Source: a virus. Taken from it: DNA of 24,109 nt. The stretch is taken from the IMG/VR virus record IMGVR_UViG_3300029787_000318, positions 308-24,416 of that record, one strand, 5' to 3'. The notes below the pieces were generated by a model. It was not told the origin of the DNA, ran no database searches, and saw only the letters and a program-made list of their open reading frames with translations. Below, piece after piece: positions 795 to 9,098 of this stretch. A program made the position numbers and the translations under genes. The number at the start of each line of letters is the position of its first letter. Position 1 is the stretch's first letter.

Positions 795-1378
795 AGAAAG
801 TATTTTATAAATCACTGTACAATATAGTACGTTCATTTCTCAGGTGGTGGCATAGAGAAGTGTTTGACTATCATAAAATGTATAGGGACATAACATTTAG
901 TTCTAATATTTCAAAGCATGAAGAGGATATATATAACTTTAATGTTGATGTCAGAAGACTAGACAAGCAGGAACTTAACTTACGTAAGAATGCTCAAATT
1001 AAAACAATGTATCACCACACAAAACAAAAAGACTATGAGATAGGTAAAAAGATAATAGATGCTAGTAGAGAAAGATTGTTAAAAGGTGAAATACAAAAAG
1101 ATGACCATGAACTTACTTTAAAATTATACGCAAAGAATTTAAGTAATCCCCAAGAACATTGGGAGTATGTAGGTATAAACTATAGGTACAACACTATTAC
1201 AGATAGAATACGTAGGTTTTTTCGTTTAACTTGTGTTCCTGTCCCTCATTTTATTAAAAAGGGTAAGGAGAATTGGTTAGCCTATCATTGGATTGATGGT
1301 TGTGAAATGATTGAAAATGTTATGCGTTACCTTGATTGGAAGTCTGAAGAAGACGAGTACGATAGCATTAGTGAGTAA
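791..1378 (+). CDS. Hypothetical protein (195 aa)
   Basis: Start at 791, overlapping the previous stop, with a purine-rich AAGGAAGGAAG just upstream. The protein is basic and aromatic in its first 30 residues (a tryptophan pair near residue 19), helical and charged in the middle, and ends in an acidic tail. No signal peptide, metal site or enzyme motif is evident. The stop codon TAA (1376-1378) lies inside palindrome copy 2, so the end of this gene and the control site of the next unit are physically joined. Family not recognised. Confidence 0.8.
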   Translation: MKKVFYKSLYNIVRSFLRWWHREVFDYHKMYRDITFSSNISKHEEDIYNFNVDVRRLDKQELNLRKNAQIKTMYHHTKQKDYEIGKKIIDASRERLLKGEIQKDDHELTLKLYAKNLSNPQEHWEYVGINYRYNTITDRIRRFFRLTCVPVPHFIKKGKENWLAYHWIDGCEMIENVMRYLDWKSEEDEYDSISE

Positions 1379-2362: not shown

Positions 2363-2541
2363 CTATTAGATTTTTTTCCAATGTTTCCTGCTTTGACCTG
2401 CTCATAAGCCCACTGCCTGTCATAGGGTTTGAACTCGACTTCAACAAATCTTTTGACATGGTCTTTGTGGCTATCAAAAAAACTGAAACAGTTAAGGAAA
2501 AAATCAATAGACTTTTTAGTATTTGTAAATACATCATTCAT
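2359..2541 (-). CDS. Small opposite-strand hypothetical protein (60 aa)
   Basis: This is the only supported minus-strand gene in the left 14 kb. The start at 2541 is chosen because a strong GGAGGTGAA lies just before it; the frame is open to 2589 without another such site. The protein has an aromatic, hydrophobic N-terminal half (FFLNCFSFF around residues 15-23) and a charged C-terminal half. A TATAAT on the same strand lies at 2564-2569. The gene converges on 2114-2362 and could be expressed at a different time from its neighbours. Family not recognised. Confidence 0.62.
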   Translation of the reverse strand: MNDVFTNTKKSIDFFLNCFSFFDSHKDHVKRFVEVEFKPYDRQWAYEQVKAGNIGKKSNS

Positions 2542-2563
2542 AGTTTCACCTCCATTAATTACT

Positions 2564-2569
2564 ATTATA
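2564..2569 (-). promoter_or_regulatory. Possible -10 box for the opposite-strand gene
   Basis: Read on the minus strand this is TATAAT, 22 nt before the start at 2541. It sits in a near-palindrome (ACTATTATAGT, 2561-2571). No convincing -35 is seen 16-18 nt upstream, so it may be weak or need an activator. Confidence 0.3.
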
Positions 2570-2646
2570 GTGTTGGTGGTGGAAGACACTATTGCTAATC
2601 TGTAATATCAGGTATGCAAAAGTGTTTAAGTTATTGGAATATCCCT

Positions 2647-2677
2647 TTGATTTAACAGGGTTTTCTAGTAATATAAT
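2647..2677 (+). promoter_or_regulatory. Sigma70-type promoter with TTGATTTAACAGGG motif
   Basis: TTGATT (2647-2652) is followed after 16 nt by TAATAT (2669-2674), or after 19 nt by TATAAT (2672-2677). The first spacer bases, TAACAGGG, match those of the promoters at 3677 and 6247. It lies about 110 nt ahead of the DUF932-like gene. Confidence 0.6.
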
Positions 2678-2680
2678 AAT

Positions 2681-2728
2681 TGAGGGTTGAAGTGATAACG
2701 AGTCCGCTCAGGATTGACACTGCCCTCA
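2681..2728 (+). promoter_or_regulatory. Leader stem-loop ahead of the DUF932-like gene
   Basis: TGAGGG (2681-2686) pairs with CCCTCA (2723-2728), and AGTG (2691-2694) pairs with CACT (2718-2721) inside. AGTCC/GGATT or GAG/CTC pairs are possible in the apex. It lies immediately downstream of the 2647 promoter and upstream of palindrome copy 3. It has no U-run, so it is not a plain terminator. Confidence 0.45.
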
Positions 2729-2743
2729 CTTTATAAAATGTTG

Positions 2744-2757
2744 GTAACACGTGTTAC
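2744..2757. promoter_or_regulatory. 14-bp palindrome GTAACACGTGTTAC, copy 3
   Basis: Exact copy 27 nt before ATG 2785. A TTGACA (2714-2719) and TATAAA (2732-2737) lie just upstream, but their spacing of 12 nt is too short for a normal sigma70 promoter. TATAAA ends six bases before the palindrome. Confidence 0.85.
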
Positions 2758-2784
2758 TAACTCTTAACAAAGAAAGGTAAATAT

Positions 2785-3675
2785 ATGTTAAGCAACGAAG
2801 CAAAAGAAAAACTAGGTACAGAAAAATTTGATTATCCTGTATCTCTTAAAGCAATACAGACAGTATCATCATCATTTGTAATACCATTTGAGGTTGGTCG
2901 TGCGGTCTTTAGAGAAGACACACAAGAGGCAATAAGTATTGTAGGTAAGAACTATAAGTTAGTTCCTCACAAATCTCTTTATCAAACAGTAAACAGAGAA
3001 CTAGATAATTCGTATCGTGAGTTCAACAACATTGATGTCACTGACCAAGTATTTGACAAAGGTGCATTAGTTAAAAGAACTATTGTTTGTAAAGATGAAC
3101 AGTACAAAGTTAATATTCCTACAAAGAATGGTGATGACTTTCAGTATTTAAGATTTGATATTTACAATTCTTATAATATGAAAATGGCATTTCACTTTGT
3201 CTTTGGTGGGTATGGTGGTTACTGTGCTAATCTACAAGTATTCAATGGTAAAGCTTTTGTAAAGCATTATGGAAAGCATACTATAAACTTACAAGACTTA
3301 GAGTTAGTTAATGACATTGGAAGACTAGTAGATAATTACTTAGTACAAGCCAATAGAATGTCTACATGGGGTGTTAAAGAATTACCTCGACTAGACTATG
3401 CTAATACATTCTTTAAGAACACTATGTGTAGAGGCTCAAAGCATACAGCTAATAAAGTTAATCAAAAAAGATTAGAAGTCCTTAATGATATCTTTTCAAA
3501 AGAAAAAGAAAGATGGGGTAATACTGTGTGGTCTTTATACAATGCCATGACACACTGGTCTACTCATAACTTTAGAGGCAAGGCTAGAACTCCTAAGTTC
3601 CAAATGACAAGGCAATCCTCTGTCAGAAAAGCTTTATCATCTTCTGACTGGAATAGTCTCTTACAAGTAGCCTAA
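2785..3675 (+). CDS. DUF932-like phage protein (296 aa)
   Basis: ATG 2785 follows AAGAAAGG. Overall layout resembles DUF932 proteins of phages and plasmids: an N-terminal region with PFEVGRAVFR and 'I.GK.Y..VP' patterns, then a central beta region with LRFDIYNSYN and a glycine-rich GGYGGYCANLQVF around residues 145-155, where the family usually has a conserved C-N pair. The family is thought to act near DNA replication or recombination, but its biochemistry is not settled. It has its own promoter, leader stem and palindrome copy, and an inverted repeat directly after it, so it looks like a one-gene unit. Confidence 0.68.
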   Translation: MLSNEAKEKLGTEKFDYPVSLKAIQTVSSSFVIPFEVGRAVFREDTQEAISIVGKNYKLVPHKSLYQTVNRELDNSYREFNNIDVTDQVFDKGALVKRTIVCKDEQYKVNIPTKNGDDFQYLRFDIYNSYNMKMAFHFVFGGYGGYCANLQVFNGKAFVKHYGKHTINLQDLELVNDIGRLVDNYLVQANRMSTWGVKELPRLDYANTFFKNTMCRGSKHTANKVNQKRLEVLNDIFSKEKERWGNTVWSLYNAMTHWSTHNFRGKARTPKFQMTRQSSVRKALSSSDWNSLLQVA

Positions 3676-3676
3676 T

Positions 3677-3704
3677 TTGATTTAACAAGGGTGTATTTTA
3701 TAAT
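3677..3704 (+). promoter_or_regulatory. Sigma70-type promoter TTGATT-16-TATAAT
   Basis: TTGATT (3677-3682), a 16-nt spacer and a perfect TATAAT (3699-3704). Transcription should start near 3711, six bases before palindrome copy 4. The spacer (TAACAAGGGTGTATT) is nearly the same as that of the 6247 promoter. The -10 region is embedded in an imperfect inverted repeat, 3687-3712 (AAGGGTG...CACCCTT). Confidence 0.75.
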
Positions 3705-3716
3705 GCACCCTTATTG

Positions 3717-3730
3717 GTAACACGTGTTAC
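3717..3730. promoter_or_regulatory. 14-bp palindrome GTAACACGTGTTAC, copy 4
   Basis: Exact copy placed about +6 to +19 from the predicted transcription start of the 3677 promoter and 13 nt before ATG 3744. This is a natural operator position. The following CTAGAAAGGT, which supplies the ribosome binding site, is shared with copy 7. Confidence 0.88.
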
Positions 3731-3743
3731 TAGAAAGGTAATT

Positions 3744-3938
3744 ATGAAAAAAGAAAAAAAAGAAGAATCAGTTAGATATGTTTATATAATAGCAACAGAT
3801 GAGGGAGGTAAAGCGACTATACCATTTTGTGTACCTAAAAGTTCTCTTAGTGGAAACCAAGCTAAAAACTATATTTTAGATAATGGTCTTCACGTATTGG
3901 ATGGCAAGTTATTTGTAGAGGTAAACACAGATGATTGA
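3744..3938 (+). CDS. Small hypothetical protein (64 aa)
   Basis: The start at 3744 is set by GAAAGG at good spacing; the open frame upstream only translates the palindrome. After a lysine/glutamate-rich N-terminus it has a compact beta-rich body (VRYVYIIAT, KLFVEV). It heads a chain of eight small genes to 5206, each overlapping the next, with the eighth (5036) starting inside the seventh. The first of them is directly behind promoter 3677 and palindrome copy 4. Not recognised. Confidence 0.75.
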   Translation: MKKEKKEESVRYVYIIATDEGGKATIPFCVPKSSLSGNQAKNYILDNGLHVLDGKLFVEVNTDD

Positions 3939-4149
3939 TACTATAAAAGAAGCTAGGCTAGTAGTAAAAAAAACTGAGAAATATTTATCAGATATACTAG
4001 CTCATGAATGGATGCATCATCATCCTCATTTTCATGGTAACAGTAAAGAAACTATGAATGGTATAGTTAATAATCTTATAGGTACAAATCATCAATTAAA
4101 TTTACTTATAGGAAAGTTAAAGAAAGATATAAAAAATGACAACATTTAA
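3931..4149 (+). CDS. Small helical protein with HExxH-like histidine cluster (72 aa)
   Basis: ATG 3931 overlaps the previous stop by eight bases. The protein is largely helical. Residues 25-35 read HEWMHHHPHFH, which fits HExxH and is followed by four more histidines. A real zincin needs a longer fold and a third ligand, so I do not call a protease. A metal-binding or nickel/zinc-sensing role is possible. The C-terminus is lysine-rich. Family not recognised. Confidence 0.68.
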   Translation: MIDTIKEARLVVKKTEKYLSDILAHEWMHHHPHFHGNSKETMNGIVNNLIGTNHQLNLLIGKLKKDIKNDNI

Positions 4150-4321
4150 ATTTGCAGTTCCTTGCAGTTATACTTATGAGATAGATGCTAATTCAGAGGA
4201 TGAGGCTAGGAAGATATTAGAAGAAAAAGGAGGAATGGATATAATGGGTGAGCTTGAAATAGAAGAATATGATTATAAGTTTGCTACATTATTAAATATA
4301 GAAAGGCAAAACGATGCGTGA
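4136..4321 (+). CDS. Small DpnD-like beta-beta-alpha protein (61 aa)
   Basis: ATG 4136 lies inside the end of the previous gene. The pattern 'F.V...Y.Y.IDANSEDEARKILEE' (two strands, then A.SE.EA and a helix) is typical of small DpnD/PcfM-like or similar domains. Genes at 4834 and 5818 have the same layout. Such domains are common in phage small-gene runs and lack a known enzyme activity. No ribosome binding site better than a weak purine run is seen, so translational coupling is likely. Confidence 0.66.
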   Translation: MTTFKFAVPCSYTYEIDANSEDEARKILEEKGGMDIMGELEIEEYDYKFATLLNIERQNDA

Positions 4322-4523
4322 TATTAAAAAAATAATACCAAAAAATCATCATATAAGTGGTATTGAAGTTGAAAAATCTTTATCTCCTGATGAAGATAAG
4401 TATTGGAGAATAAGAATAAAAATAACTCATAATGATTATGAAGCTCAAGGGTATGGTGATTACAATAAAGATTACTTTGTATTTTTAATAAGCAAAGGAG
4501 GACTAGGCATATATGACAGATAA
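4314..4523 (+). CDS. Small hypothetical protein (69 aa)
   Basis: ATG 4314 overlaps the preceding stop by eight bases, with AGAAAGG just before it. The product looks mostly beta (YWRIRIKITH, YFVFLIS) with charged loops. No motif recognised. It sits in the middle of the small-gene chain and its 3' end carries AGGAGG, the ribosome binding site of the next gene. Confidence 0.7.
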   Translation: MRDIKKIIPKNHHISGIEVEKSLSPDEDKYWRIRIKITHNDYEAQGYGDYNKDYFVFLISKGGLGIYDR

Positions 4524-4671
4524 AGAGATAATTAAAGAACTAAGTATATCAGTAGCTTGTCTTTTAGATGATACTGGTTTTATTGTTGAGGATTATGTTG
4601 CAGATATAGAGCATATACAAAACTTGGTGACTAAACTAGAAAATATAATAGAAAGGAAATCAGATGAGTAA
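4513..4671 (+). CDS. Small acidic helical protein (52 aa)
   Basis: A 52-codon frame starts at ATG 4513, overlapping the previous stop, with AGGAGG at 4496-4501. It ends at TAA 4669-4671, overlapping the next ATG at 4664. The product is acidic and likely all-helical (TDKEIIKELSIS..., then IEHIQNLVTKLENI). The strong ribosome binding site and chained overlaps support it. Not recognised. Confidence 0.66.
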   Translation: MTDKEIIKELSISVACLLDDTGFIVEDYVADIEHIQNLVTKLENIIERKSDE

Positions 4672-4834
4672 CCAACAGAATGAAGAAGTAATGGAAAGTA
4701 TCAAAGATGAATTAGAAGGTATGTCTATGGCAGAATTTTCTAATCTAGTAGAAAAATATGACTTAGGTATAGAAACTATAGATAGTATGTTCTATGACGT
4801 TGTACATAAAATATTTGAAGAGAGGAGTAGGTAA
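4664..4834 (+). CDS. Small acidic helical protein (56 aa)
   Basis: A 56-codon frame starts at 4664 behind GAAAGG and ends at 4834, sharing one base with the ATG of the next gene (TAATG). It is rich in Glu, Asp and Met and probably helical throughout. No domain recognised. It resembles the 4513 gene in size and charge but not clearly in sequence. Confidence 0.66.
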   Translation: MSNQQNEEVMESIKDELEGMSMAEFSNLVEKYDLGIETIDSMFYDVVHKIFEERSR

Positions 4835-5046
4835 TGGGTTTTAAAAAAAATTATCCATTAGAAGTATCTTTTACTATTCGCTGTAAAGTAAAAGTAGCAG
4901 GGAACAGTAGAGATATCCATGAAGATGCAGAATATCTTGCTAAGAGAATGTTGTTAGATGAATATGGATTAGACTTCGACAAACATAAACTAGGTATTTA
5001 TGTTATGGTTGAAGATGATTTAGATGAGGTATCTAATGAAGCATGA
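4834..5046 (+). CDS. Small beta-beta-alpha protein (70 aa)
   Basis: ATG 4834 overlaps the previous TAA, with GAGAGGAG upstream. The layout 'LEVSFTIRCKVKVAGNSRDIHEDAEYLAKRML' is two strands, then a helix that begins after a short acidic loop, like the products of 4136 and 5818. It ends in an acidic tail. I read these as three divergent relatives in one region. Function unknown. Confidence 0.7.
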   Translation: MGFKKNYPLEVSFTIRCKVKVAGNSRDIHEDAEYLAKRMLLDEYGLDFDKHKLGIYVMVEDDLDEVSNEA

Positions 5047-5206
5047 TATTAAAATCATGAGCCACAAACCTAAGAAAAGTAATACAGCAGTTCTGTATTT
5101 AACAAGAAATGAAGTATTAACAAAAGAAGAAAGACTAAGAAGAAAAGAAAGGAGTAGAGTGGATAAGCTTCTCTCTCCTAATTATTTTAATAACGATAAT
5201 GCCTAA
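5036..5206 (+). CDS. Small basic protein (56 aa)
   Basis: The frame is open from 5024. ATG 5036 is preferred because GAGGT lies five bases before it, and it starts inside the end of the preceding gene. The product is very basic, with a run of Lys/Arg/Glu around residues 30-42 (EERLRRKERSR) that suggests a nucleic-acid or ribosome-binding helix. It is the last gene of the small-gene chain; a short inverted repeat (CCTAATA/TATTAGG, 5203-5218) overlaps its stop codon. Confidence 0.65.
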   Translation: MKHDIKIMSHKPKKSNTAVLYLTRNEVLTKEERLRRKERSRVDKLLSPNYFNNDNA

Positions 5207-5231
5207 TATGTATTAGGTAGAAAGAGAATGT

Positions 5232-5363
5232 ATGATAAAGACTAAATTTGATTTACCCTTTTGGTATGATATTATTAATAACAATAAAGGGGTATATATA
5301 TCCTCGGGGGTGGGAACCCCTTCTATCATGTATATTAAAATCTGTAAAGAAAAATATTGTTAA
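5232..5363 (+). CDS. Possible small protein (43 aa)
   Basis: A 43-codon frame from ATG 5232 (GAAAGAG upstream) to TAA 5361-5363 fills most of the gap after 5206. It contains FDLPFWYDIINN and a GVYISSGVGTP segment and has plausible composition. The same bases hold a promoter-like TTGATT-16-TATTAT (5248-5275) and two overlapping hairpins (AAGGGGT 5287-5293 or GGGGT 5307-5311 pairing with ACCCC(TT) 5316-5322). The stretch may therefore be a control region, not a gene. Confidence 0.42.
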   Translation: MIKTKFDLPFWYDIINNNKGVYISSGVGTPSIMYIKICKEKYC

Positions 5364-5369
5364 AAATAT

Positions 5370-5447
5370 ATGGACTTAGATATTATATTTTTAGTGGTTG
5401 TTTTAGTCATTCTACTCACATTTAAAAAATGGATTGGAATGTTATAA
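5370..5447 (+). CDS. Possible single-pass membrane micropeptide (25 aa)
   Basis: A 25-codon frame from ATG 5370 encodes MDLDII followed by an uninterrupted hydrophobic run (FLVVVLVILLTF) and a KKW basic end, the expected form of a tiny N-out or N-in membrane helix. There is no convincing ribosome binding site, so it could only be coupled to the 5232 frame, which ends six bases earlier. Its last bases overlap the TATAAT at 5443-5448. Confidence 0.35.
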   Translation: MDLDIIFLVVVLVILLTFKKWIGML

Positions 5448-5454
5448 TAAGTTA

Positions 5455-5468
5455 GTAACACGTGTTAC
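5455..5468. promoter_or_regulatory. 14-bp palindrome GTAACACGTGTTAC, copy 5
   Basis: Exact copy, 14 nt before ATG 5483, followed by TGGAAAGG. A perfect TATAAT (5443-5448) ends six bases upstream, though the -35 region (TTTAAA, 5421-5426) is weak. Transcription would begin at about the first base of the palindrome. Confidence 0.86.
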
Positions 5469-5482
5469 TGGAAAGGAATGAT

Positions 5483-5818
5483 ATGTTAATATCAAAACTA
5501 ACTGTACCTGAAGCTATTAAAGAAATGGTGGGTACTACTAATACTTTCTCTGTAGGTTTCTACAAGAAAGATGGAGCATTTAGAACTGGAGTATTCAGAC
5601 TAGGTGTAAAGAAAAATCAGAAAGGTGGTAAGCAATATACCAATCCTTCTAATTATCTTGTTGCATATGATATGCAGAAGAAAGGATATAGAAATATTAA
5701 TTACAATACGATTAAATATATAAAAGCAAAAGGTATGATTTATCATATTGATGTAGAGAACACTGATGATTACAGATTAATGTTTGTTGGTGTTGTCAAT
5801 ACTAAGGATGCAGACTAA
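5483..5818 (+). CDS. Conserved phage protein, small beta-barrel type (111 aa)
   Basis: ATG 5483 is chosen because GGAAAGG precedes it; the frame is open from 5462. The core 'FRTGVFRLGVKKNQKGGKQYTNPSNYLVAYDMQKKGYRNINYNTIKYIKAKG' resembles small proteins of marine podoviruses that run RTG.K...KGG, a stretch ending in V.D..K.GYR.IN, and a final strand. I regard this as an SH3-like or WYL-like barrel of unknown role, by pattern only. The gene heads a three-gene unit behind palindrome copy 5. Confidence 0.66.
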   Translation: MLISKLTVPEAIKEMVGTTNTFSVGFYKKDGAFRTGVFRLGVKKNQKGGKQYTNPSNYLVAYDMQKKGYRNINYNTIKYIKAKGMIYHIDVENTDDYRLMFVGVVNTKDAD

Positions 5819-6009
5819 TGCCTATGTATGAAGTAACAGTAGAAATTACTTATAGTAAAAAGTATTATGTTAAGGCAAAGGACATTGAAGAGGCACAAGA
5901 TAATTATCTTCTTGAAGGTCACACCAGTCCTTTGTACGACACACCTATTGATAGAACTATTATGGATGTTAATGAGATTGTCAAAAAGAATGGAGAAGAA
6001 TTTGATTAA
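5818..6009 (+). CDS. Small beta-beta-alpha protein (63 aa)
   Basis: ATG 5818 shares a base with the upstream TAA. The pattern 'YEVTVEITYSKKYYVKAKDIEEAQDNYLLEG' matches the beta-beta-alpha layout of the 4136 and 4834 products, with VKA.DIEEA as the helix start. It may start at the in-frame ATG 5824 instead. Function unknown; coupled translation is likely. Confidence 0.68.
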   Translation: MPMYEVTVEITYSKKYYVKAKDIEEAQDNYLLEGHTSPLYDTPIDRTIMDVNEIVKKNGEEFD

Positions 6010-6250
6010 ACGTATTCATATCAATCAACATAACATTAGATACAATAATAAAAATCCTAATGACACTAAGGATGTTATTACAGTTAAAACATATAAGAAT
6101 AATTATTATGGTTCTGATGTAGTTTGTAATGGTGCTACAAGAATTGTTTATAGTCCTGATAAGCCTCTGTCCTGCGGTGCTAAAGTTTGGATAGAAGCAT
6201 TAGGTGATGTTACTGTAATAGGTAAAGATAATAAACCCATAACAGTTTGA
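5990..6250 (+). CDS. Conserved hypothetical protein (86 aa)
   Basis: The frame is open from 5867, but that part lies over the 5818 gene; ATG 5990 leaves a usual 20-base overlap. Segments IKRIHINQHNIRYNNK, VITVKTYK and VVYSPDKPLSCGAKVWIE-like text (residues about 50-70) recall a small family found in phages and some bacteria, beginning 'IHVNQHVIR.N' and containing 'YSPDKPLSCGA.VWIE'. No function is known to me. Its stop codon lies within the -35 box of the 6247 promoter. Confidence 0.68.
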   Translation: MEKNLIKRIHINQHNIRYNNKNPNDTKDVITVKTYKNNYYGSDVVCNGATRIVYSPDKPLSCGAKVWIEALGDVTVIGKDNKPITV

Positions 6251-6274
6251 CTTAACAGGGGTGTATTATATAAT
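6247..6274 (+). promoter_or_regulatory. Strong sigma70-type promoter of the structured non-coding block
   Basis: TTGACT (6247-6252), a 16-nt spacer and TATAAT (6269-6274). The -10 sits in a perfect palindrome, GTATTATATAATAC (6263-6276 with the preceding G). Transcription should start near 6281, exactly where the first stem of the block begins. The spacer start (TAACAGGGGTGTATT) matches the 3677 promoter. The -35 overlaps the stop of the preceding gene. Confidence 0.78.
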
Positions 6275-6522
6275 ACTATTATCTTCTTTGACTAACCCTT
6301 TCAGTCAATAAGATGTTGTTATGCAACTGGGGTGTGGAGTTTAGTAGTGTTGTCTTCACACCCCTTAATTATGCGAAACACTTGTGTGCATATGAGTGTT
6401 TCGTATAGTTGACTATAACTCGTGCGTAAGCCATTTCGTATTCTTGGGTTCGTAGCCGAGTATAAACTCAAACGCAACGCAAAGTACCTTGGGGTAGATT
6501 GTACAGTCTGCCCCACGTAAAT

Positions 6523-6619
6523 TAGTTTAGTGGCAGGTCTGCTGAAAAATTATATGCAGAAACCAAGATATAGCCAAAAGGACGCAAAGCCTCGGGAACC
6601 TGACTTGGACACTAAACTA
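6523..6619 (+). ncRNA. Compact pseudoknotted RNA domain within the block
   Basis: A perfect 10-bp closing stem joins TAGTTTAGTG (6523-6532) and CACTAAACTA (6610-6619). Inside are a TCTGC/GCAGA hairpin (6538-6542 with 6556-6560), CCAAG 6563-6567 with CTTGG 6604-6608, and CAGG 6534-6537 with CCTG 6599-6602, which crosses it to form a pseudoknot. The 3' strand of the closing stem can pair instead with TAGTTTA at 6665-6671, so two exclusive folds are possible, as in a riboswitch. GGACGCAAAGCCTC (6580-6593) recalls part of the cyclic-di-GMP-I riboswitch core, but its partner strand is missing. Confidence 0.5.
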
Positions 6620-6626
6620 CTAGTTA

Positions 6627-6640
6627 GTAACACGTGTTAC
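6627..6640. promoter_or_regulatory. 14-bp palindrome GTAACACGTGTTAC, copy 6
   Basis: Exact copy inside the non-coding block, just after the pseudoknotted domain and between the two sequences that compete for its closing strand. Unlike the other six copies it is 140 nt from the next start codon (6781). Confidence 0.85.
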
Positions 6641-6780
6641 ACAATGGGTGTTGAATCGTAATACTAGTTTAATTAACTTAATGCGTGGATATAGTGTAGC
6701 ACGAATCCACCGCCCATATACACGGCTAAGGTAGTGCCAAGGGGATTTTCCCAAAACTACCTATCACAAAAGGAGTAATC

Positions 6781-6942
6781 ATGAATAGTACTGAAGCATA
6801 TCTAGAAAAATTTAATTCTAGATTATGGTCATTGTTAAGATACCATCAAGGGGAGTATCGAACAGACTTTGAATTTCCATTAATAAAAAAACATATAGAT
6901 AAAGATTTAAAGGACTTGCATTATCAGAAAAAAAAGTTATAA
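6781..6942 (+). CDS. Small hypothetical protein (53 aa)
   Basis: A 53-codon frame begins at ATG 6781 with AAAGGAG at ideal spacing and ends at TAA 6940-6942. The product is rich in Lys, Tyr and Phe, with a basic C-terminal end (YQKKKL); no motif is recognised. It follows the structured block and is closed off by two hairpins, so it would be the only protein made from that transcript. The strong ribosome binding site is the main support. Confidence 0.66.
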   Translation: MNSTEAYLEKFNSRLWSLLRYHQGEYRTDFEFPLIKKHIDKDLKDLHYQKKKL

Positions 6943-6978
6943 AGAAAGAGTATATTCACTCATATACTTTCTTTCTTT
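6941..6978 (+). terminator. Bulged stem-loop after the 53-codon gene
   Basis: AAAGAAAG (6941-6948) plus AGTATAT (6949-6955) pairs with ATATACT (6962-6968) and CTTTCTTT (6971-6978), with a two-base TT bulge and a six-base loop. There is no U-run after it, so it may act as an RNA-stabilising stem more than a terminator. Confidence 0.45.
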
Positions 6979-6985
6979 GTGGCTC

Positions 6986-7019
6986 AAAGGGGTGGTCAGA
7001 AATGACTGCCCCTTTTTTT
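6986..7019 (+). terminator. Intrinsic terminator before the replication operon
   Basis: AAAGGGGTGGTCA (6986-6998) pairs with TGACTGCCCCTTT through a GAAA loop (6999-7002), with two wobble pairs in the stem, and runs into seven T residues (7013-7019). This is a textbook rho-independent terminator. It separates the structured block from the replication genes, whose control site (copy 7) starts 23 bases later. Confidence 0.88.
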
Positions 7020-7042
7020 GGCTCTGAAGAAATTATGTTTTG

Positions 7043-7056
7043 GTAACACGTGTTAC
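7043..7056. promoter_or_regulatory. 14-bp palindrome GTAACACGTGTTAC, copy 7
   Basis: Exact and last copy, 13 nt before the primase ATG at 7070, with the same CTAGAAAGGT ribosome-binding segment as copy 4. Only 23 bases separate it from the terminator, too few for an ordinary full promoter (an AT-rich TTATGT is the only -10-like string). Transcription control of the replication operon may therefore depend on this site. Confidence 0.86.
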
Positions 7057-7069
7057 TAGAAAGGTTACA

Positions 7070-7873
7070 ATGTACATCACAAAGAAACATCAACTAGAAT
7101 ACATAAAACAATTAGACATACCTCCTAACAGTCAGGTTAGAATGGACTGTCCTTTTTGCCTCAACAAAAATACATTTTACATAAACACAGAAGACTTTAA
7201 AATTAAATGGGGATGCTATCATGCATCTTGTAAAATTGGTGGCAATACTGAACGTCAACTATCTCCTGAAGATGTTACAAATTTCTTGGAACTATCGTCA
7301 TCCGTCAAAACGGACGAACGGCAACAAAAGAGTTGGACAATACCTAGACACTTCACGAACATACAATCCAGTCAGAAATGTTTTTCTTATGTTAAAGAAA
7401 ATAATTGTTACCCTGCATACATTGAAGGATTAGCATCTATTTATTTTGACCCACGAAAGGACCGGGCTGTTTTTATTGTTAAGAACAAAGGGGAACCTGT
7501 ATCTGCAGTTGGTAGAAGTCTTAATCCAGTCATAATGCCTAAGTGGTTTAACTATAATAAAAATAATATTCCTTTTAGTTGCGGCACTGATGACACTGCA
7601 GTTGTTGTAGAAGATTGTGCTTCTGCTTGTGCTGTTAGTTCTATACACACAGGAATTGCTTTATTAGGTACAGCATTAAAAGAAGAGTATGCCATCTACT
7701 TAGCAAAAAATTTTAAAAAAGTTATTATAGCTTTAGATAGAGATGCAACTAAAAAGGCATTTGATTTATCAAAAGGACTGAGGTATCTTATCGATACGGA
7801 AGTAAAAGTCTTGGACGAAGACTTAAAGTATTTAGAGAACACAAAGATTAAGGAGTTATTTAATGTCACTTGA
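7070..7873 (+). CDS. DNA primase, T7 gp4 N-terminal type (267 aa)
   Basis: Makes RNA primers on the lagging strand. The N-terminal zinc-binding unit is C27-x2-C30 (CPFC), with C49 and C54 (CYHASC). The TOPRIM domain shows VVVEDCASAC with Glu181 and ALDRDAT with Asp223 and Asp225, the metal-binding acids. The order and size match the primase half of T7 gp4, here a separate gene from the helicase, which starts 11 bases before this stop. ATG 7070 is chosen over the open frame from 7040 because GAAAGG precedes it and the longer form would translate the palindrome. First gene of the replication operon. Confidence 0.88.
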   Translation: MYITKKHQLEYIKQLDIPPNSQVRMDCPFCLNKNTFYINTEDFKIKWGCYHASCKIGGNTERQLSPEDVTNFLELSSSVKTDERQQKSWTIPRHFTNIQSSQKCFSYVKENNCYPAYIEGLASIYFDPRKDRAVFIVKNKGEPVSAVGRSLNPVIMPKWFNYNKNNIPFSCGTDDTAVVVEDCASACAVSSIHTGIALLGTALKEEYAIYLAKNFKKVIIALDRDATKKAFDLSKGLRYLIDTEVKVLDEDLKYLENTKIKELFNVT

Positions 7874-9098
7874 AAATAGAATAATTAAATTTTGTTTAAA
7901 CCGTGATTTTTTTGAGGATAATAAAAAAAGGATTAGTAAGAAAAATTTTACTAATGGTTTAGCTGAAGTTTACACTGTTATAAAAAATACATATAACAAA
8001 CATAATGATGTGCAAAAACTTTCTGTAGAAGAAATTAAAGATGCATATTTTAATATATATAAACCTGCATCTACTACAGCTCATAGACAAAAAATGAGTG
8101 TTATATTAGATAACATAGGTTCTGATAATACAGAATATAATGAAGCTATAGTATCTGAAACATTAAAAAGTTTACGTATACAAGAACATGCTAGACAGCT
8201 TATAGAAGAAGCTAATGGTGTATGGAATGGTACACAAAAAACTTTAACAAATGTAAAAAAAATAGTAGATGAGTTTGATGAAGATGACATAGCAGGAGAA
8301 GATGGATTAGTTCCTGTCACTAAAGATATTAGTGAGATGCTCCAAGCTGTATCAGTTACTTCTAAATGGAAGTTTAATATAAAAACATTAGGAGATAGAA
8401 TTGATGGTGTAGGTGAAGGTAATCTTATGGTTATATTTGCTAGACCTGAGACAGGCAAGACAGCTTTTTGGGTAAGCTTAGTGGCAGGATATGATGGCTT
8501 TGCTCATCAAGGTGCTAAGGTTCATTGTTTTATTAATGAAGAACCTGCAGTAAGAACTCAAATGAGAATGGTATCTGCATGGACGGATATGCATAAAAAT
8601 GAAATAGAACATAATATGAAAGAAGCCACAGATGATTGGAAAAAAATTAGAGATAATATTATTTGTCACGATTCTGTAGATTGGTCTTTAGACTCTCTTG
8701 ATAAATATTGTGAAGATAATAAACCTGATATAGTTATTGTTGACCAATTAGATAAAATAAATGTAGAGGGAACTTTTGCTAGAGGAGATGAAAGGTTGAG
8801 AGCTATTTATTTAGGAGCGAGAGAGATAGCTAAAAGAAGAAATATAACTTTGATAGGAGTATCACAAGCTAATGCAGAGGCAGAAGGTTCTGCTATTCTG
8901 TCTTTTGACATGATGGAAAACAGTCGTACTGGTAAAGCTGCTGAAGCTGATTTAATTATAGGTATAGGTAAAGCACAACAAGATGGTGATACACCAAACT
9001 TTATGAGAAATTTAAATGTTATCAAAAATAAAATTAATGGTTGGCATGGTATTGTAAACACAGTGCTAGTACCTCAGAAGTCGAGGTTCATAGAATAA
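7863..9098 (+). CDS. Replicative DNA helicase, DnaB/gp4 family (411 aa)
   Basis: Unwinds DNA ahead of the phage polymerase as a ring ATPase. A helical N-terminal domain (about 1-150) precedes a RecA-type core: Walker A ARPETGKT (193-200, Ala in place of the usual first Gly), NEE with Glu226/227, Walker B IVIVDQLDKI (290-299) and GVSQAN (332-337). Size and motifs fit DnaB-like phage helicases. The start at 7863 has AGGAG upstream and overlaps the primase by 11 bases; the stop shares one base with the polymerase ATG. Partner of the separate primase, as in systems where gp4 is split. Confidence 0.9.
   Translation: MSLENRIIKFCLNRDFFEDNKKRISKKNFTNGLAEVYTVIKNTYNKHNDVQKLSVEEIKDAYFNIYKPASTTAHRQKMSVILDNIGSDNTEYNEAIVSETLKSLRIQEHARQLIEEANGVWNGTQKTLTNVKKIVDEFDEDDIAGEDGLVPVTKDISEMLQAVSVTSKWKFNIKTLGDRIDGVGEGNLMVIFARPETGKTAFWVSLVAGYDGFAHQGAKVHCFINEEPAVRTQMRMVSAWTDMHKNEIEHNMKEATDDWKKIRDNIICHDSVDWSLDSLDKYCEDNKPDIVIVDQLDKINVEGTFARGDERLRAIYLGAREIAKRRNITLIGVSQANAEAEGSAILSFDMMENSRTGKAAEADLIIGIGKAQQDGDTPNFMRNLNVIKNKINGWHGIVNTVLVPQKSRFIE

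Follow-up and report, generated by a model that had tools for sequence, protein, structure and literature searches.

Large structured non-coding RNAs such as GOLLD and ROOL are known, some of them from phages or prophages, and viral xrRNAs form tandem compact pseudoknots in viral untranslated regions. Type III antitoxins (ToxI, AntiQ, CptI, TenpI) are short pseudoknotted RNAs in arrays of near-identical tandem repeats, with an endoribonuclease toxin gene downstream behind a terminator. A related pseudoknot RNA, pseudo-ToxI, was found expanded as a decoy in phage escape mutants (PMC5086642). RNA anti-CRISPRs (Racr) are small phage RNAs, solitary units that act in trans on host defense (PMC10651486), and the HK022 put RNA is a single short cis element (PMC9378689). 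Here we describe a marine phage locus that is very probably an array of RNA modules, compact pseudoknots for the most part, that fold independently of one another and can be exchanged; transcription is predicted from a promoter of its own.

The window, a stretch of 24,109 nt, is part of a 24.4-kb viral contig and contains consecutive genes for primase, DnaB helicase and DNA polymerase. Pelagibacter phage HTVC033P has the nearest polymerase, at 55% identity over 97%, followed by HMO-2011-type phages; SAR11 is the host of the nearest isolates. Upstream of the primase lies an interval bounded by an ORF that ends at 6250 and a 53-aa ORF that starts at 6781. The first-pass annotation had described it as a hairpin-rich non-coding block, and the description holds: 6251–6780 contains short unsupported ORFs but no family-matched gene, and folding predicts nine or more stems, with hairpins of 22 bp and 11 bp among them. 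The array region itself, about 480 nt between the promoter and the 53-aa ORF, is also richer in G+C than nearby genes, as had been noted (41.8% over 6281–6761, compared with 31.6% in ten coding genes of the window). A promoter of the block's own, with a start near the first stem at 6281, had been proposed as well; the site in question (Table 1) ranks first among 35 promoter-like sites in 2500–8000. The predicted end of the transcript at 7019 coincides with an intrinsic terminator. The stretch 6986–7070 places a strong terminator ahead of the primase, with just a weak promoter candidate between them.

Table 1. Features of the array and its surroundings (window coordinates unless a contig is named)
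Feature	Position	Strand	Remarks
Promoter TTGACT-16-TATAAT	6247–6274	+	Predicted to drive the array; 11/12 consensus
Leader hairpin, predicted 5′ end	6281–6314	+	From the fold; a different hairpin in the same place in L009–L012
11-bp hairpin GGGGTGTGGAG/CTTCACACCCC	6329–6364	+	From the fold; terminator-like in relatives (followed by TTTTT)
M2, long hairpin	6366–6417	+	Segment swapped in L007
M4, predicted H-type pseudoknot	6418–6488	+	P1 ACUCG.GC/GCCGAGU crossed by GUAU..UUG/CAA.GUAC; 30 contigs
M5, GC-rich spacer hairpin	6491–6514	+	Kept with M4 in L007, L009–L011, L013, L023
M6, closing helix and predicted pseudoknot	6524–6618	+	CAGGU/ACCUG x CCAAG/CUUGG; 9 contigs
14-bp perfect palindrome GTAACACGTGTTAC	6627–6640	.	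Probable DNA operator; recurs through the phage genome
M7, three-helix RNA	6645–6716	+	AAUACUAGUU nearly invariant, ACUUAAU invariant; 22 contigs
M8, predicted H-type pseudoknot	6723–6762	+	NGGC/GCCN x RGGUAGU/ACUACCY, variable insert; 59 contigs (strict pattern)
53-aa ORF after the array	6781–6942	+	Kept in relatives whichever array precedes it
Intrinsic terminator, predicted transcript end	6986–7019	+	
Pyrimidine-dimer-glycosylase-like gene in relatives	L008:546–1031; L013 about 880–1364		Pfam Pyr_excise (L008)

The folding energy of the block corresponds to a z-score of −4.1 (100 shuffles; −3.4 with 24 shuffles), but values of −3.7 and −3.3 also occur in 530-nt windows elsewhere in this phage. 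Because a few other windows are similarly stable, folding energy is not decisive by itself, and the case therefore rests on comparison with relatives, where conservation and covariation are the part that exceeds chance. Twelve related phage contigs were located through the primase; L numbers below denote such contigs and other array-bearing loci compared with the window. For M7, 14 distinct sequences keep 92% of the cells of 15 pairs paired, and eight of the 15 pairs have changed on both sides; the covariation score of 0.36, compared with 0.13 in shuffles, was reached by none of 500 of them, and slid controls collapse. The 38 distinct sequences of M8 retain 97.4% of the pair cells in two crossing helices; much of the invariance seen in M8 was imposed by the search pattern (92 hits, about 13 of which were excluded as GC-rich coding chance matches). 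The stems show compensatory changes, with a covariation score that none of 500 shuffles reached. The outer pair of stem 1, left free in the pattern, occurs as U-A, C-G, A-U and G-C and is absent in 10 of the 38 sequences, including that of the window. M4, M6, M9 and E1 each display two crossing helices with compensatory changes in small samples laid out by hand, as seen in P1 and S2 of M4 and in the M6 copies of L008, L039 and L123. By these comparisons M4, M6 and M8 are predicted pseudoknots. Stems of M7 and M8 tolerate G-U pairs as RNA does, and M8 copies span 28–117 nt owing to an insert of freely variable length, which is expected of non-coding RNA and not of coding sequence. Compensatory changes in relatives had been proposed as a check on the structured-RNA claim, and they speak for it.

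In related contigs the promoter and the 53-aa ORF stay the same while the string of elements between them differs: the block consists of separable modules, at least four of them folding as units of their own, and is not one structure. L007 has flanks 99.2% (left) and 99.9% (right) identical to those of the window, while the 52 nt of the M2 hairpin are replaced by approximately 136 nt comprising an operator, a hairpin and a structured element, M3. A comparably clean exchange separates L009 from L011, and swapping of this kind is recent. Hairpins of the M2 type also precede M4 in L021, L023, L024 and L029. Pattern searches of IMG/VR show that M4, M6, M7 and M8 each recur in other uncultured marine phages, often unrelated ones, in varied order and beside varied genes, and array carriers include phages of different polymerase or terminase lineage. 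A family census by iterated nhmmer over the fetched loci, with closely related contigs included in the counts, found 21 module families in 232 copies on 102 contigs, forming 43 distinct ordered neighbor pairs. All 55 multi-module arrays are co-oriented throughout. We are confident that the modules come from a stock of 20 or more mutually unrelated families that HMO-2011-type and other marine phages share. The modules of the window are mutually unrelated; M8–M8 pairs occur occasionally elsewhere. Additional unnamed modules are visible, for example M15 in L011 and L013, and the longest arrays, of about 7–10 modules with several unnamed, are found at L097:1–720, L150:573–1412 (− strand) and L013:1–850. 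In some relatives the pyrimidine-dimer-glycosylase-like gene lies between the array and the homologue of the 53-aa ORF.

The window and 33 array-bearing loci have no match in Rfam 15 at the gathering threshold, so the covariance-model search suggested in the first-pass annotation returned no family; a permissive scan of the block gave weak candidates far below the thresholds. A single large RNA in the style of GOLLD or ROOL, also suggested there, is not supported: the covariance models of both find no match in the block, and its modules, about 40–110 nt each, are separable, occur alone and reordered elsewhere, and share no single conserved architecture. With xrRNAs the array has in common tandem compact pseudoknots in untranslated regions, a likeness of predicted fold, but it belongs to DNA phages and mixes many unrelated families. 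M8, M4 and M6 resemble type III antitoxins in being pseudoknotted units, as folded by comparison, and they too are short and set in arrays. However, the window's array holds modules unlike one another in place of near-identical repeats, and no toxin gene was found nearby: the proteins neighboring the array include no defense or toxin match, and it is the primase that follows the terminator. With Racr, which mimic CRISPR repeats, the modules would share the character of small phage RNAs that act in trans.

The contexts of the modules vary widely. Some lie in leaders, immediately ahead of a ribosome-binding site; others occupy 3′ UTRs that lead into a terminator (M7 in L041 and L043); still others make up gene-free units of their own, each running from promoter through array to terminator (L097, L144, L028). 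The same module is found before, after or far from unrelated genes, independently of what its neighbor encodes. Such varied placement speaks against control of one particular downstream gene, and the diversity of families, exchanged quickly and cleanly, points to many different partners. For these reasons we favor, tentatively, a role of the modules as trans-acting, protein-binding decoy or inhibitor RNAs directed against the host, similar to phage pseudo-ToxI and with RNA anti-CRISPRs as a further precedent. The array would be transcribed early from its own promoter, and the transcript would fold into discrete units that bind protein and that cleavage at the spacer hairpins might separate. 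Working in trans, these units would serve as decoys for, or inhibitors of, RNA-binding proteins of the host or its RNA-targeting defenses, and phages would gain, lose and swap them as their hosts change. Several observations count against such decoys. Many copies, above all of M8, directly precede a ribosome-binding site, a position that fits a cis role too; no toxin or defense gene was found beside the array; and SAR11 is not, to our knowledge, noted for rich defense systems. The identity of the array together with the trans-decoy mechanism is the best explanation as a whole, one to which we lean with some reserve. The stronger proposal, that the pool is assembled into arrays as an RNA arsenal in which each module neutralizes a different host protein, seems rather unlikely; if true, the arrays would be interchangeable anti-host cassettes made of RNA.

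A rival reading is protection of the transcript. Modules at 5′ ends and in 3′ UTRs might block host exonucleases or RNase E and stabilize early mRNAs, and would then be comparable to the exonuclease-resistant pseudoknots that plant and animal RNA viruses carry in tandem. The tandem arrays of compact pseudoknots suit this idea, as do M6 in a 5′ leader right after a promoter (L123), M8 directly upstream of ribosome-binding sites and the M7 copies that precede terminators. A single roadblock should be enough, however, and more than 20 unrelated, sequence-conserved and rapidly swapped families suggest many targets and not one enzyme, which makes protection unlikely as the explanation. Nascent modules might instead bind RNA polymerase, as does the HK022 put RNA, likewise a structured element close to where an early transcript begins, and carry it through downstream terminators into the replication genes. 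Arrays are often upstream of replication genes, and in the window a strong terminator stands between array and primase, with just a weak promoter candidate there. Yet the arrays of L028, L034 and L097 end at a terminator that is followed by a new promoter, and modules also lie in 3′ UTRs. The put RNA is a lone short element (PMC9378689) that acts in cis and binds RNA polymerase, whereas the modules are many and swappable; we regard antitermination as improbable. Whether as decoys, as roadblocks to decay or as antiterminators, the modules would act in ways that we infer.

Leader positions and pseudoknots with conserved loops also invite comparison with leaders that sense a ligand in riboswitch fashion, or with ribozymes that process themselves, in either case controlling the gene that follows, and M6 contains GGACGCAAAGCCTC. 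Such control is quite improbable, given that no Rfam family matches, c-di-GMP-I included, that one and the same module may stand ahead of unrelated genes or of no gene, and that arrays mix many families. The string in M6 (6579–6592), known from c-di-GMP-I riboswitches, occurs without the rest of that aptamer. M6 was considered as a c-di-GMP-I riboswitch on its account and dropped: such a riboswitch would need the full two-helix aptamer in addition to GGACGCAAAGCC, and the Rfam scan gave no c-di-GMP-I match up to E=10 in 6000–7100. A replication origin, the other suggestion of the first-pass annotation, or another DNA-level element rich in inverted repeats would be consistent with a position upstream of the primase, with the inverted repeats themselves and with a palindromic operator inside the block. 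Against it, the stems covary in RNA-like fashion and admit G-U pairs, co-orientation is strict, and modules occupy many unrelated genome positions (intergenic, within 3′ UTRs, ahead of genes for terminase or SSB); GC skew merely flattens here and reverses near 14 kb. We consider an origin or similar DNA element extremely improbable.

No prior description of the modules was found in the literature searched, which was thin on subscription journals and preprints, and the individual modules would be new RNA families. We know of no counterpart to this arrangement, in which pseudoknots unlike one another are strung together and pass between phages as cassettes. A pool of pseudoknot modules that phages share and recombine would add a new layer to phage biology and supply structural studies with RNA folds; should the modules act in trans, dozens of RNA effectors would become available for testing. 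The dominant viral groups of the ocean include HMO-2011-type phages, for which the paper reporting this describes no non-coding RNA (PMC9038755).

Strict M8 and M7 patterns had no match in the genomes of 84,980 bacterial and archaeal species, one genome per species, the patterns being exact so that distant copies could escape. Among isolate phages, blastn with the whole block gave chance matches only, HTVC033P and HMO-2011 have no M8-like site with up to one mismatch, and no module was found within the first 9–14 kb of these two phages or of HTVC103P. The only clear blastn match to a module among 50,697 isolate phage records was in Pelagibacter phage HTVC115P, with E1 at 2746–2857, E9 at 7732–7778 and a divergent M8 at 7790–7831. 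This M8 is by itself a weak match (E 0.058), but its stem changes are compensatory (UGGU/ACCA, GAGUAGU/ACUACUC) and the common E9-M8 order is kept. One carrier is therefore a cultured phage with a cultured host, and the question is directly testable.

The promoter motif TTTGAYTTAACARGGGTGTATTWTATAAT has nearly the same copies at 3676–3704 and 6246–6274 and a weaker one near 2652 (2652–2680). An ORF upstream of the array (5462–5818) has a sub-threshold match to WYL_2 (Sm-like). The perfect palindrome TAACACGTGTTA occurs six times (1367–1388, 2736–2757, 3714–3730, 5447–5468, 6619–6640 and 7040–7056), mostly immediately before ribosome-binding sites. In relatives the palindrome is altered symmetrically, to CTTAACACGTGTTAAG or TTATAACGTTATAA, as would be expected of operators of a co-evolving phage repressor.
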